From NCBI GenBank assembly GCA_003224235.1, contig QHYU01000158.1:1-36200 (forward strand): DNA of 36,200 nucleotides. The letters run 5' to 3'. Numbering within the stretch: the first letter of the stretch is position 1; every line of letters begins with the position of its first letter. This DNA comes from Acidobacteriota bacterium. Its GTDB lineage: Bacteria; Acidobacteriota; Terriglobia; Acidiferrales; UBA7541. Of this stretch, positions 25,528-30,208 are shown in pieces. Below the pieces are notes generated by a model, which saw only the letters and a program-made list of their open reading frames with translations, did no database searches and was not told the origin of the DNA. The position numbers and the translations under genes were made by a program.

Positions 25528-26577
25528 ATGTCCTTTGAGCAGGCCACATGGGTGTGGAAAAACGGCGAGTTGATTCCCTGGAAGGATGCCACCGTGCACG
25601 TCTCCGCTCACGCCTTGCACTACGGTAGCGGCGTTCTTGAGGGCATCAGGTGTTATGACACGGCTGAAGGACCTGCCGTGTTCCGCCTTGACGCACACCT
25701 GGATCGGCTCTATGACTCCGCTTCGGTTTACGGAATGGAGATCCCGTATAACAGAGCACAGCTTGCTGAAGCTGTGTGCGAGGTGATCCGCGGCAATGGC
25801 TTTCGAAGCTGCTATGTCCGCCCCATCTGCTTCTTCGGAAGCGCTAGCCTTGCGCTGAACCCCCAGAGGTGTCCGGTCGAAGTTGTGATCTTCGCCTGGC
25901 CCTGGGAAACCTACCTAGGCAACAAAGCCCTGGAGGCCGGCGTGCGCGTGACCCTCTCTCCGTGGGTGAAGTTCCATTCCCGCATGCTGCCCACCACGGC
26001 GAAAGCGTGCGGGCAATATGTCAATTCGATTCTGGCCGTGCGCGAAGCCATGGGCCGGGGCTACGACGAAGCCCTGCTGCTCGCCTCCGACGGTTCGATT
26101 GCCGAAGGATCGGGAGAAAACATCTTCTTGGTTCACGGGGAAAAGCTTCTGACCAACGACGAACGGCACTCGATCTTGCTGGGGGTCACACGCGATGCGA
26201 TAATCGAAATCGCCTGCAATCTGGGCCTCCCTGTTGAAATCAGAGCAATCCAAGTGAACGATCTGCTCTCCGCCGACGAAGCGTTCTTCACGGGCACAGC
26301 CGCCGAAGTGACGCCCATCCGCGAGGTGGATGGCCAGCCCATCGGCAGCGGCGCACGCGGGCCGCTGACCGCCAAGATCCAGCAGGCATTCTTCGCGGCC
26401 ACCTCGGGGCGCGACCTCCAACATAGGCACTGGCTACATCTGGTCGCTTCAGGGCCGTCGAAACCCGTCCCCGCAACCGAAGCGACTTCGCTTAGCGAGA
26501 CTCAACGCAGGGAAATAGAGCACCGGGAGGGGTCAGCGGCGATGGCGAGGGAGGCGGCGCATTGCGACCCCGCTTAG
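25528..26577 (+). CDS. ilvE: Branched-chain amino acid aminotransferase
   Basis: A 349-residue PLP enzyme of fold type IV that gives valine, leucine and isoleucine from their 2-oxo acids with glutamate. Motifs are [18 protein letters not shown] near the start, the PLP lysine Lys159 in [38 protein letters not shown], and [14 protein letters not shown] with the phosphate site. The family normally ends near residue 305-310 (here QHRHWLHLV). The remaining ~40 residues ([29 protein letters not shown]...) look like an unstructured extension. ATG 25528 follows the cupin gene by 21 bp; the upstream site is only a weak AGGG. Confidence 0.95.
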
Positions 26578-26614
26578 GGTCCCCAGCATCACTGTCTCCA
26601 CTCTCAGAGGCATT

Positions 26615-28357
26615 ATGACAGGCGACGGAAAACATCGCAGTCGCGTTCTCCTCGACGGTCCTCGCCGAGCGCCGGCACGATCTTATTTCAAGGCGATTGG
26701 CTTCACGGACGAAGACCTGACGCGACCATTGGTGGGCATCGCCAACACCTGGATCGAAACCATGCCGTGTAACTTCCACTTGCGCCACCTGGCGGAGAAG
26801 GTCAAAGCCGGCGTGCGCGCCGCCGGGGGCACGCCGATGGAGTTCAACACGATCGCCATCAGCGACGGCGAAACGATGGGCACCGAGGGAATGAAAACCT
26901 CGCTTGTAAGCCGCGAGGTTATTGCCGACTCGATTGAATTGGTGGGTCGGGCGTACATGTTCGATGCCATCGTGGCGCTTGTGGGCTGCGATAAGACGAT
27001 TCCCGGCGCGGCGATGGGACTGATCCGCCTGAATGTGCCAAGCCTTGTGCTCTACGGCGGCTCGATCCAGCCGGGTCGCTTTCAGGGCCGCGACGTTACC
27101 ATCCAGGATGTTTTTGAGGCTGTCGGCGCTCATGCGGCCGGCAAAATGTCCGATGAGGATCTTCTGGCGCTGGAAAATGCCGCGTGCCCCGGGGCAGGAG
27201 CCTGTGGCGGTCAGTACACGGCCAACACCATGGCCCTGGCACTGGAGTTCCTCGGGCTGTCCCCGCTGGGAACAGCCAGCGTGCCCGCTACGCATCCACT
27301 CAAGGACGAAGTGGGCTTTCACTGCGGTCAACTCGTGATGGACCTCTTGCGGAGACAGATTCAACCGTCTCACATCCTGACCCGCAAAGCTCTGGAAAGC
27401 GCCATCGCCGGCGTAGCTGCGACCGGAGGCTCCACAAATGCCGTGCTTCATCTGCTGGCTTTGGCCAGCGAAGCGAACGTGGAGTTGCGCCTCGAAGACT
27501 TCGATGCCATTAGCGCCCGCACCCCGCTGCTTGCCGACCTGAAACCTGCCGGCCGGTTCACCGCCGTGGATCTTTATAAGGCCGGGGGCAATCAGCTCGT
27601 AGCAAGAAAACTCCTGGAGGCAAAACTCATCGATGGGAGTCATATGACCGCCAGCGGAAGAACTCTCGAGCAAGAGGCGCTGCGAGCAAGCGAGCGCGAG
27701 GGTCAAGAAGTGGTGCGGCCATGCAGCAACCCGCTGAAACGGACGGGAGGGCTGGTGGTTTTGAAGGGCAACCTCGCTCCGGAAGGGAGCGTGGCCAAAA
27801 TTACCAGTCACGAGAACCTCTATCATAGGGGCCCGGCCCGAGTATTTGATCGCGAAGAAGACGCCATGGAAGCCGTCACCAGGGGAGCAATTCAAAAAGG
27901 CGACGTCGTTGTCATCCGGTACGAAGGCCCGAAGGGAGGGCCCGGGATGAGAGAGATGCTCGGCGTCACTGCCGCGCTCGTTGGCGCTGGTCTGGGCGAG
28001 GATGTGGTGTTGGTGACCGATGGGCGTTTTAGCGGCGCGACACGCGGCCTGATGGTCGGCCATGCAGCTCCCGAGGCAGCTTGTGGAGGACCCATTGCCG
28101 TCGTGCAACCGGGCGACACTATCGTTTTTGACATCGAGGCAAGGAGCTTGCGCGTGGAACTGAGCGCCGAGGAGCTACGCGCTCGGCTTCGCCGATGGAA
28201 GGCTCCTGAACCGCGCTATAAGTCTGGCGCGCTCGCCAAGTATGCCACGCTCGTTTCCTCCGCAGCGGAGGGAGCTGTTACGCGCCCCAACTTTGAGCAT
28301 TTCGGCGCAACAGGACTCGGCCCGCTCGCCGGTCAAACACTTTCCCAAGCGGAATGA
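26615..28357 (+). CDS. ilvD: Dihydroxy-acid dehydratase
   Basis: A 580-residue Fe-S enzyme that dehydrates 2,3-dihydroxy acids to 2-oxo acids, the step before IlvE. Cluster-region cysteines are Cys52 ([10 protein letters not shown]-like context), Cys125 (GCDKTIPG) and Cys191/Cys197 ([17 protein letters not shown]). [31 protein letters not shown] and the C-terminal [22 protein letters not shown] are further signatures. The cluster type ([2Fe-2S] or [4Fe-4S]) cannot be told. ATG 26615 follows CAGAGG. The stop TGA overlaps a possible ATG of the next ORF. It completes the pathway set ilvB-N-C-E-D; no leu genes are in the window. Confidence 0.97.
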
Positions 28358-28380
28358 CACTGGCAAGGTGGGGAGGATGG

Positions 28381-28767
28381 GTGTTGATTTTTGATCGCGT
28401 GATTCCAATCCTACGGATCTTCTCGATCGACAAAGCGAAGGAGTTCTACGTTCAGTTCCTTGGCTTTAAGGTTGATTGGGAGCATCGCTTTGACGAGAAG
28501 GCACCTCTGTACATGCAGGTCTCAAGGGGCAATCTGGTGTTTCATTTGACCGAGCATTATGGTGACTGTTGCCCCGGTTCGACCGCTTTTGTGATAATGA
28601 CCGGGCTCGATGAATTCCATCGCGAGATCAGCTCCAAGGATTACCAATACATGCGGCCCGGCGTCGAAATAACGCCCTGGAATGCAAAACTCATGGAAGT
28701 AATCGATCCGTTTGGTAACCGGATACGTTTCAACGAATACCTTAATCCGCCAAGGAAAGAACAGTAG
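28381..28767 (+). CDS. Glyoxalase/bleomycin-resistance (VOC) superfamily protein
   Basis: A protein of about 128 residues with a single VOC fold in two halves: VIPILRIFSIDKAKEFYVQFLGFKVDWEHRF at the start, GNLVFHLTEHYGD in the middle and MEVIDPFGNRIRFNEY at the end. The segment order fits the bleomycin-resistance-protein branch of the superfamily, but the ligand is unknown and the name does not prove resistance. Start GTG 28381 (or TTG 28384) is preferred because GGGAGG stands just upstream; an ATG at 28354 overlapping the ilvD stop (ATGA) is possible. It is the last gene of the ilv operon on this strand. Its end is duplicated by a short tandem repeat. Confidence 0.8.
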   Translation: MLIFDRVIPILRIFSIDKAKEFYVQFLGFKVDWEHRFDEKAPLYMQVSRGNLVFHLTEHYGDCCPGSTAFVIMTGLDEFHREISSKDYQYMRPGVEITPWNAKLMEVIDPFGNRIRFNEYLNPPRKEQ

Positions 28768-28833: not shown

Positions 28834-29862
28834 CTACGAGCGGCCATTTGGGGTCGAAAATCGCAGCAGAGGCTCAGCAAGTCCGCGCATCAACTCCGCG
28901 AAGCCTCCGAGATCGAGCGACTGTGGTCCATCCGATAGCGCGCGTTCCGGACAGGGATGAACCTCAATCAGCAGGCCGTCGGCGCCGATGGCGACCGCCG
29001 CGCGTGCCGCCGCGGGCACTAGACTGCGCCGCCCAGTCGCGTGGGATGGATCTACGACCACCGGCAGGTGCGAGAGCTCTTTCGCCAGAGCGACACCGGC
29101 CAAGTCCAGCGTATTGCGCATCTCCGTCTCAAACGTCTTGATGCCGCGCTCGCACAAGACGACGTTGGGATTCCCGCCCGCAACCAGGTATTCAGCGGCC
29201 AGCAGCCATTCCTTGATCGTCGCCGAGGGGCTACGTTTCAGCAAAATCGGTCGGGGCGTGGTGGCCAGGCGGCGCAGCAGGGGAAAGTTTTGCATGTTGC
29301 GCGCGCCTACTTGAAGCATGTCGGCGTACTCGCTGACGGTCTCGATCTCCTCCGTGCTCATCACCTCCGTCACGACCGGCAATCCTGTCTCCTCGCGTGC
29401 TTCCTTCAGGATCTGCAGCGCTTCCACGCCCAGCCCCTGAAAGTCATACGGTGAAGTGCGAGGCTTGTAAGCGCCTCCTCGCAGCATGTGGGCTCCCGCC
29501 GCCTTAACCCCGCGAGCAGTCTGCAATAACTGCTCCCGCGACTCCACGGAACATGGCCCGGCCATCACCACCACATCGCCGCCGCCAATGCGAACGCCCC
29601 GCACCTCCACCATCGTGCGTTCGGGTCGCATCTGCCGGCTCACGAGTTTGAATGGGTGGGCGATGGGAATAATCTCCTCCACTCCGGGGGCAGCTCGGAG
29701 GGCCTCCAATTGATTCCGATGATGGTCGCTCTTGCCCACTGCGCCGATGACGGCGCGCTCGGCGCCGCGGATCAAGTGTGGTTGATATCCGCACTCCTTG
29801 ATTCGGTCGATGACGTGTTGGATCTGCTCCTCAGTAGCGTCCGATGACATGTTGACGATCAT
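28834..29862 (-). CDS. aroF: 3-deoxy-7-phosphoheptulonate (DAHP) synthase
   Basis: A 342-residue first enzyme of the shikimate pathway; it condenses phosphoenolpyruvate and erythrose-4-phosphate. The class I-beta form (AroA/KDO8P synthase-like) is indicated by an N-terminal ~80-residue ferredoxin-like domain ([25 protein letters not shown]), then [57 protein letters not shown] and [11 protein letters not shown]. The N-terminal domain may mediate feedback inhibition in this class. ATG 29862 has AAGGAG seven bases upstream. It is preceded by a Phe/Tyr/Trp-rich leader and attenuator (29977-30208). No other aromatic biosynthesis gene is adjacent; it faces the ilv operon. Confidence 0.96.
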
Positions 29863-29976
29863 GGTCTGGCTCCTTTGCGTGTCACGTTGGTTTCGTTGAC
29901 GAATGCGCGCGCTGCCTGGATTTCTCGTACCTGGCTCGCTGTCAAACCTCCCTTTCGTCGTGCCATAACCGAGGGA

Positions 29977-30014
29977 AAAACAAAAAAGCCGCGACCTCGG
30001 TTGAGGTTCGCGGC
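29977..30014 (-). terminator. Intrinsic terminator of the aroF leader
   Basis: On the minus strand GCCGCGAACCTC (30014-30003) pairs with GAGGTCGCGGC (29998-29988), 11 bp with one bulged A and a 4-nt loop. It is followed at once by TTTTTTGTTTTT (29987-29976). This is a strong intrinsic terminator, placed 114 bp before the aroF start, so it must be escaped for expression. Confidence 0.92.
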
Positions 30015-30106
30015 CGGTTTCGAAACTCTTCGCGCTGTCTAGGTCTTAGATCTCATCCCTCACGCGCGTGGGCTTCGCCCGGCCGCTTCCCCAATATGGG
30101 AAGCGG
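29988..30106 (-). promoter_or_regulatory. Transcription attenuator of aroF (pause, antiterminator, terminator arms)
   Basis: Minus-strand order: arm 1 CCGCTTCCC (30106-30098) inside the aromatic codons; arm 2 GGGAAGCGG (30091-30083) extended to GCGGCCGG (30086-30079); arm 3 CCGGCCGC (30017-30010); arm 4 GAGGTCGCGGC (29998-29988). 1:2 is a 9-bp perfect pause hairpin, 2:3 an 8-bp GC-only antiterminator, 3:4 the terminator. A ribosome stalled on Phe, Tyr or Trp codons covers arm 1, frees arm 2 for arm 3 and so prevents termination. The layout is that of trp-type attenuators. Confidence 0.85.
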
Positions 30107-30153
30107 TACGGAAAGGCAAAGCTATAAAATCTCATTTCCATCGCGCGGTTCAT
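30046..30153 (-). CDS. aroF leader peptide, 35 aa, Phe/Tyr/Trp-rich
   Basis: Thirty-six codons from ATG 30153 to TAA 30048-30046, too short for ordinary gene calling. Residues 9-21 read FYSFAFPYRFPYW: eight of 13 are aromatic. Alternative in-frame ATGs at 30141 and 30135 lie just before this run, and a GGACG stands upstream of the first ATG. The final 14 residues (GSGRAKPTRVRDEI) have no such bias. The peptide itself need not have a function; its translation senses charged Phe-, Tyr- and Trp-tRNA. It sits between a promoter-like site and the attenuator hairpins upstream of DAHP synthase. Confidence 0.85.
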   Translation of the reverse strand: MNRAMEMRFYSFAFPYRFPYWGSGRAKPTRVRDEI

Positions 30154-30178
30154 CAGGATTCGTCCGATTGCGGCTCGC

Positions 30179-30208
30179 ACTCTAAGCTATCGCCTCCGCA
30201 GATGTCAA
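30179..30208 (-). promoter_or_regulatory. Promoter candidate for the aroF leader
   Basis: TTGACA (30208-30203) then 18 bp then TAGAGT (30184-30179, 4/6 to the -10 consensus) on the minus strand. The predicted start, near 30172, is about 20 bases before the leader-peptide ATG, which fits an attenuator transcript. Confidence 0.6.

Follow-up and report, generated by a model that had tools for sequence, protein, structure and literature searches.

A predicted ribosome-mediated attenuator upstream of the DAHP synthase gene aroF in Acidobacteriota

The aroF gene on the 36.2-kb contig analysed here (the whole of which we call the window) is probably under the control of a ribosome-mediated, leader-peptide transcription attenuator, a reading to which we give a probability of roughly 0.9 on the strength of sequence comparison. 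The arrangement is very probably a switch that would limit expression of aroF to times of aromatic amino acid shortage. DAHP synthase catalyses the first step in making aromatic amino acids, and the gene regulated here (28834-29862, minus strand, as are all leader features below) encodes a type I-beta enzyme with a ferredoxin-like N-terminal domain. The source genome, that of a soil bacterium, is 4.57 Mb in size and 99% complete; Candidatus Acidiferrum typicum is among its relatives, which puts it within or close to the class Terriglobia of the Acidobacteriota.

The aroF leader and its alternative folds

The leader is preceded by a putative promoter with the -35 hexamer TTGACA (30203-30208) and the -10 hexamer TAGAGT (30179-30184), separated by an 18-nt spacer, where the first-pass annotation had placed it. 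The leader-peptide ORF that follows (MNRAMEMRFYSFAFPYRFPYWGSGRAKPTRVRDEI, 30046-30153, at most 35 codons) was identified from the ORF listing and family conservation and includes the aromatic run FYSFAFPYRFPYW. Among the 656 ORFs of at least 12 codons on both strands of the window, it is the only one with at least 6 Phe, Tyr or Trp residues in 12 codons, and the run is therefore not a product of chance. The ORF proposed in the first-pass annotation is thus present; its length of 35 codons is less secure, as ATGs occur in frame at 30153, 30141 and 30135. Conservation sets in only from about 30141/30135, the start region has no clear Shine-Dalgarno sequence, and the position of the start codon is uncertain.

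Arm 1 (CCGCTTCCC, 30098-30106) forms a 9-bp hairpin with the first stretch of arm 2 (GGGAAGCGG, 30083-30091), which is the 3′ half of hairpin 1:2. The antiterminator part of arm 2 (GCGGCCGG, 30079-30086) can instead form 8 bp with arm 3 (CCGGCCGC, 30010-30017), which is common to the antiterminator and the intrinsic terminator stem-loop 3:4 (29988-30014). A T-tract (TTTTTTGTTTTT, 29976-29987), recognised by sequence reading, follows the terminator. Hairpin 1:2 and the terminator were defined by folding and covariation and arm 3 by pairing and covariation; hairpin, antiterminator and terminator with its T-run all agree with what had been proposed. Arm 1 overlaps the Tyr codon at 30108-30106 and the Phe codon at 30102-30100, which are among the most conserved aromatic positions and are the presumed control codons. 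The Shine-Dalgarno sequence of aroF (AAAGGAG, 29870-29876), read directly, lies seven bases 5′ of the aroF ATG and is clear of the terminator. Between the terminator and aroF there is a second 35-codon ORF (29859-29966, minus strand), whose TGA stop overlaps the aroF ATG, such that translational coupling is possible; this ORF was not seen in the relatives inspected.

The 131-nt stretch folds with z = -4.6, and no shuffle folds equally well. With arm 1 free, hairpin 1:2 and the terminator form. When arm 1 is masked and arm 4 has yet to be transcribed, arms 2 and 3 pair here and in 40/41 family members overall. Only L012 departs from this, and its terminator is unrelated in sequence. In the full-length RNA with arm 1 masked a mixed fold is favoured, and the forced antiterminator and forced terminator are only 1.4 kcal/mol apart; therefore kinetics must decide between them. 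A ribosome protects about 13 nt downstream of its A site, and this footprint was used in the stall folds. When the A site of the modelled ribosome was placed at Phe 30102, arm 2 was left free.

We propose that transcription starts just 5′ of the short leader ORF. Given an ample supply of charged tRNA-Phe and tRNA-Tyr, the ribosome would clear arms 1 and 2, which would re-pair behind it; the terminator would then form and transcription would end about 110 nt before aroF. A ribosome stalled on the conserved F-x-Y-R-F codons would instead cover arm 1, leaving arm 2 to pair with arm 3, and RNA polymerase would proceed into aroF. If the leader were not translated, hairpin 1:2 would form and transcription would likewise end. 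Both the response of termination to tRNA charging and the identity of the dominant amino acid are inferences. Judged by sequence, termination would yield an RNA of roughly 190 nt, and a further role for this RNA or the peptide in trans on other mRNAs has a precedent in the trpL leader of S. meliloti, for which such action has been reported (PMC7298713). Nothing in our comparison needs a trans activity, and we consider it improbable.

Conservation and covariation among orthologous leaders

We gathered DAHP synthase upstream regions from 101 genomes. Of the direct aroF orthologues with enough sequence, 36/41 have a leader in which 5 or more of 12 codons are aromatic and 26/41 one in which 6 or more are, compared with 6% and 0.9%, respectively, of dinucleotide shuffles of the same upstream DNA. 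Paralogous DAHP synthase genes have a leader in 1/33 cases. A covariance model, R1, was built from nine aligned family leaders and found matches in 42/89 family genomes, with a single match in all but one. R1 gave no match to paralogue loci at E below 0.05; at the paralogue locus L064 it reached E 0.089, where that locus carries its own aromatic ORF.

The genes 3′ of the R1 matches are a lone aroF (9), aroQ-pheA (13), aroQ-aroF (2), pheA with aroQ unrecognised by our crude motif (11) and aroQ with no pheA seen (4); three matches were unassignable by motif, two of them at contig ends. All R1 matches with enough 3′ DNA precede aroF, aroQ and/or pheA, except L212, L213 and L208. The first two are the weakest matches and were excluded from later counts, and L208, missed by the crude motif search, has a DAHP synthase gene about 0.5 kb downstream. 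Stand-alone pheA genes across the class are mostly without a leader. Within the source genome, the aroF attenuator was the sole match in a search with R1. We also looked for a second aromatic attenuator there and rejected it, with no aromatic leader before pheA (L214) or near trpE (L215). Convergent to aroF on the plus strand (25528-28767) are an ilvE-like aminotransferase gene, ilvD and a glyoxalase-family gene; on reading the stretch 5′ of the aminotransferase gene, no branched-chain leader was evident.

Covariation was seen in all three helices. Helices 1:2 and 3:4 together show changes on both sides at 13 pairs (63 cells, 90.5% paired; 0/500 shuffles) in an alignment of 43 members, which was built with R1, so that these counts lean towards the model. 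The antiterminator 2:3 is not part of R1 and is 83.7% paired, with 15 two-sided cells (0/500 shuffles). Moreover, arms 2 and 3 match their own partners with a score of 19.3, compared with 16.7 ± 0.35 for swapped partners (0/200). Long independent complementarity is found in several members, with 13 bp in L203 (GCGGCCTGTTGAA with TTCAACAGGCCGC). In the unbiased alignment of nine sequences, one 2:3 pair of the window is changed on both sides relative to its relatives (G-C for A-U). Orthologues thus keep both the aromatic run and the arm complementarity, with compensatory changes, as the first-pass annotation had expected of them. Taken together, the orthologous leaders, the covariation and the folds with arm 1 masked support its proposal that attenuation of the trp/phe type acts on aroF.

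Promoters are a further common feature. At least 9/12 matches to the two hexamers, no more than 75 nt from the leader, occur in 27/41 family members, compared with 1.7% of mononucleotide shuffles, and the spacing between the TTGACA-like box and the -10 box is most often 17 nt. In nine loci (L172, L174, L180, L183, L186, L200, L203, L204 and L208) the leader start codon lies 9-13 nt past the -10 box, and therefore the leader mRNAs of several members are predicted to be leaderless or nearly so. The locus L172 also contains a long near-perfect palindrome (2671-2752) that scores below threshold for an Rfam microRNA family and is probably a repeat or mobile element.

Codon content and the amino acids sensed

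Within the core of the leader, Phe and Tyr interchange at three positions and neighbouring codons vary synonymously, while the codon position in the loop of hairpin 1:2 is Trp in 10 members, Tyr in 17 and Phe in 7. This variation suggests that the ORF is coding, and the combination of aromatic exchange with synonymous change is as expected if aromatic codons, and not one particular peptide, were under selection. The strong conservation of FAFTYRF within the family could be taken to mean that the ORF encodes a small protein that has an independent function, the terminator merely tuning basal expression. However, the aromatic residues interchange freely, the length and C-terminus vary, arm 1 accounts for part of the conservation, and analogous leaders elsewhere have only aromatic richness in common. 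Such a protein would moreover leave the covariation of the antiterminator unexplained, and we regard it as very improbable.

Leader-peptide attenuation raises the question of what is read. The leader probably senses Phe and Tyr, as predicted from codons that are both conserved and well placed. The first-pass annotation had Phe, Tyr and Trp being read together, and for Trp the case is weaker. There is a single Trp codon (30093-30091), it sits in the loop of hairpin 1:2, and when a ribosome was modelled with its A site there (Trp 30093) arm 2 was partly masked and the 2:3 helix could not form in full. Since a ribosome stalled at this codon would cover arm 2, Trp sensing is expected to be weak here; the same partial masking would follow a stall at the last Tyr codon.

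The distribution of Trp codons bears on the same point from the other side. Among leaders of a lone aroF, Trp is found in 8/9 of those in the R1 family and in 32/32 of those not matched by R1, a group that includes about 10 leaders of the same family (mostly of genus g6, plus L030). Only 9/32 R1-type leaders before aroQ/pheA operons contain Trp, and within the R1 set the association with operon type is significant (Fisher p = 0.002, ignoring shared descent). Two genomes, G030 and G058, each have one Trp-rich aroF leader and one Trp-free leader of the R1 type. These patterns suggest that leaders of a lone aroF, as a rule, are likely to sense Trp, and they favour an attenuator that senses Trp as strongly as Phe and Tyr. 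Against this stands the placement of the one Trp codon in the source leader, for which Trp sensing is doubtful: that it is effective in the source genome we put at somewhat below even odds, and that it equals the response to Phe and Tyr at slightly less than that.

In family f10, leaders before pheA-aroF operons contain mainly Phe (FSFAFRFF, FIFNF, FIFFFNF). The loci concerned are L023, L026 and L033 (first 300 bases), with a strong terminator before pheA in L023 and L026. We lean, by a small margin, towards a view of the leader as an amino acid sensor that can be rewritten, its codons evolving in step with the downstream genes, with Phe, Tyr and Trp before a lone aroF, Phe and Tyr before aroQ-pheA(-aroF), and mainly Phe before the pheA-aroF operons of f10. 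The paired leaders of G030 and G058 show the same pattern inside one genome. If this is true, all three end products would control the shared entry-point enzyme via one leader, instead of via three isozymes. Dozens of homologues with different operons and codon sets constitute a testable natural experiment on codon content versus the amino acid sensed.

A terminator with an antiterminator would, taken alone, suit any class of attenuator, including a ligand- or protein-binding RNA (riboswitch, T-box or TRAP-like) next to which the ORF is incidental. However, a search of Rfam, including Trp_leader, Phe_leader and T-box, gave no family at its gathering score here or in relatives, and aromatic codon content tracks the downstream genes. 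A binding RNA is in our judgement very improbable, and we retain leader-peptide attenuation.

Leaders beyond the R1 family and comparison with known systems

Analogous leaders, again with terminators, are present in other families of Acidobacteriota. A hairpin and T-run lie between leader and gene in 33/34 leader loci outside the R1 set, a few of which may be the same species from two collections, and most of these loci have 6-11 bp of complementarity between arms 2 and 3. Their terminators are often CCCACTC-loop-GAGTGGG, which is near-identical before aroF across many Acidobacteriota genera of several families (L013, L015, L017, L022, L027, L028, L042, L046, L049, L053, L056, L057, L068, L099 and L110, among others) and shows more conservation than terminator function would demand.

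Mixed Phe/Tyr, and often Trp, leader ORFs were also observed before DAHP synthase genes in other phyla, with a terminator in 8/11 (L123, L127, L133, L136, L146, L150, L118, L162, L164, L165 and L168). These come from Deltaproteobacteria, Calditrichota, Armatimonadetes, Planctomycetes, Nocardiopsis and Chloroflexi/Anaerolineae, and those scanned had no Rfam match. The deltaproteobacterial leaders L123, L133 and L136 have in common CCATGGC terminators and a C-terminal tail that resembles VCPSLRR, which suggests a separate attenuator family. The R1 family itself is absent from Rfam 15. A candidate match to BcKCsr2 (RF02883) was rejected as chance, since its 20 bits fall short of the gathering score, 40; its E value was 0.036 in a 701-nt search and 1.3 in a larger one, and mainly the GC-rich terminator was matched.

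The leader-peptide attenuators of E. coli trp and pheA are represented in Rfam as Trp_leader and Phe_leader. Like them, the aroF leader has a promoter, a short ORF rich in codons for the product, helices 1:2, 2:3 and 3:4, a T-tract and a biosynthetic gene downstream; it differs in target gene and sequence, in its mixed Phe/Tyr(/Trp) codons, in having no Rfam match and in the position of its stop codon. The E. coli trp leader has its stop codon in the interval from arm 1 to arm 2. Here it lies between arms 2 and 3 (30048-30046), 34 nt past arm 2, and it is 16-44 nt past arm 2 in all 41 members measured, so that the first-pass description of exactly the trp order needs correction on this point. 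Leaders of the ilvGMEDA type sense several amino acids and resemble the aroF leader in that a single leader combines the signals of more than one end product of a common pathway, branched-chain in their case and aromatic in ours.

Two described aroF leaders are closer in target. In Corynebacterium glutamicum, RNA-seq pointed to a putative attenuator leader peptide with Phe-Tyr-Phe before the DAHP synthase gene aroF (PMC4046766); compared by description, this actinomycetotal leader has a short FYF run and no Trp (PMC4046766). The uORFC-13-1 motif of Acholeplasma aroF likewise combines an upstream ORF with Phe codons and a terminator, with attenuation predicted (PMC8632094). It differs in being confined to Mollicutes, in having a U run that gives at least one Phe, and in its structure (PMC8632094). 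For Acidobacteriota, a 2010 survey associated functions with almost none of the predicted attenuators, and our literature search, which covered papers outside subscription, found no description of an aromatic attenuator in this phylum, although an earlier prediction is possible. Leader-peptide attenuation is classical, and the present case is one for which we found no earlier description in Acidobacteriota. With it, the phylum gains a concrete and strongly covarying candidate attenuator with a clear input and output.
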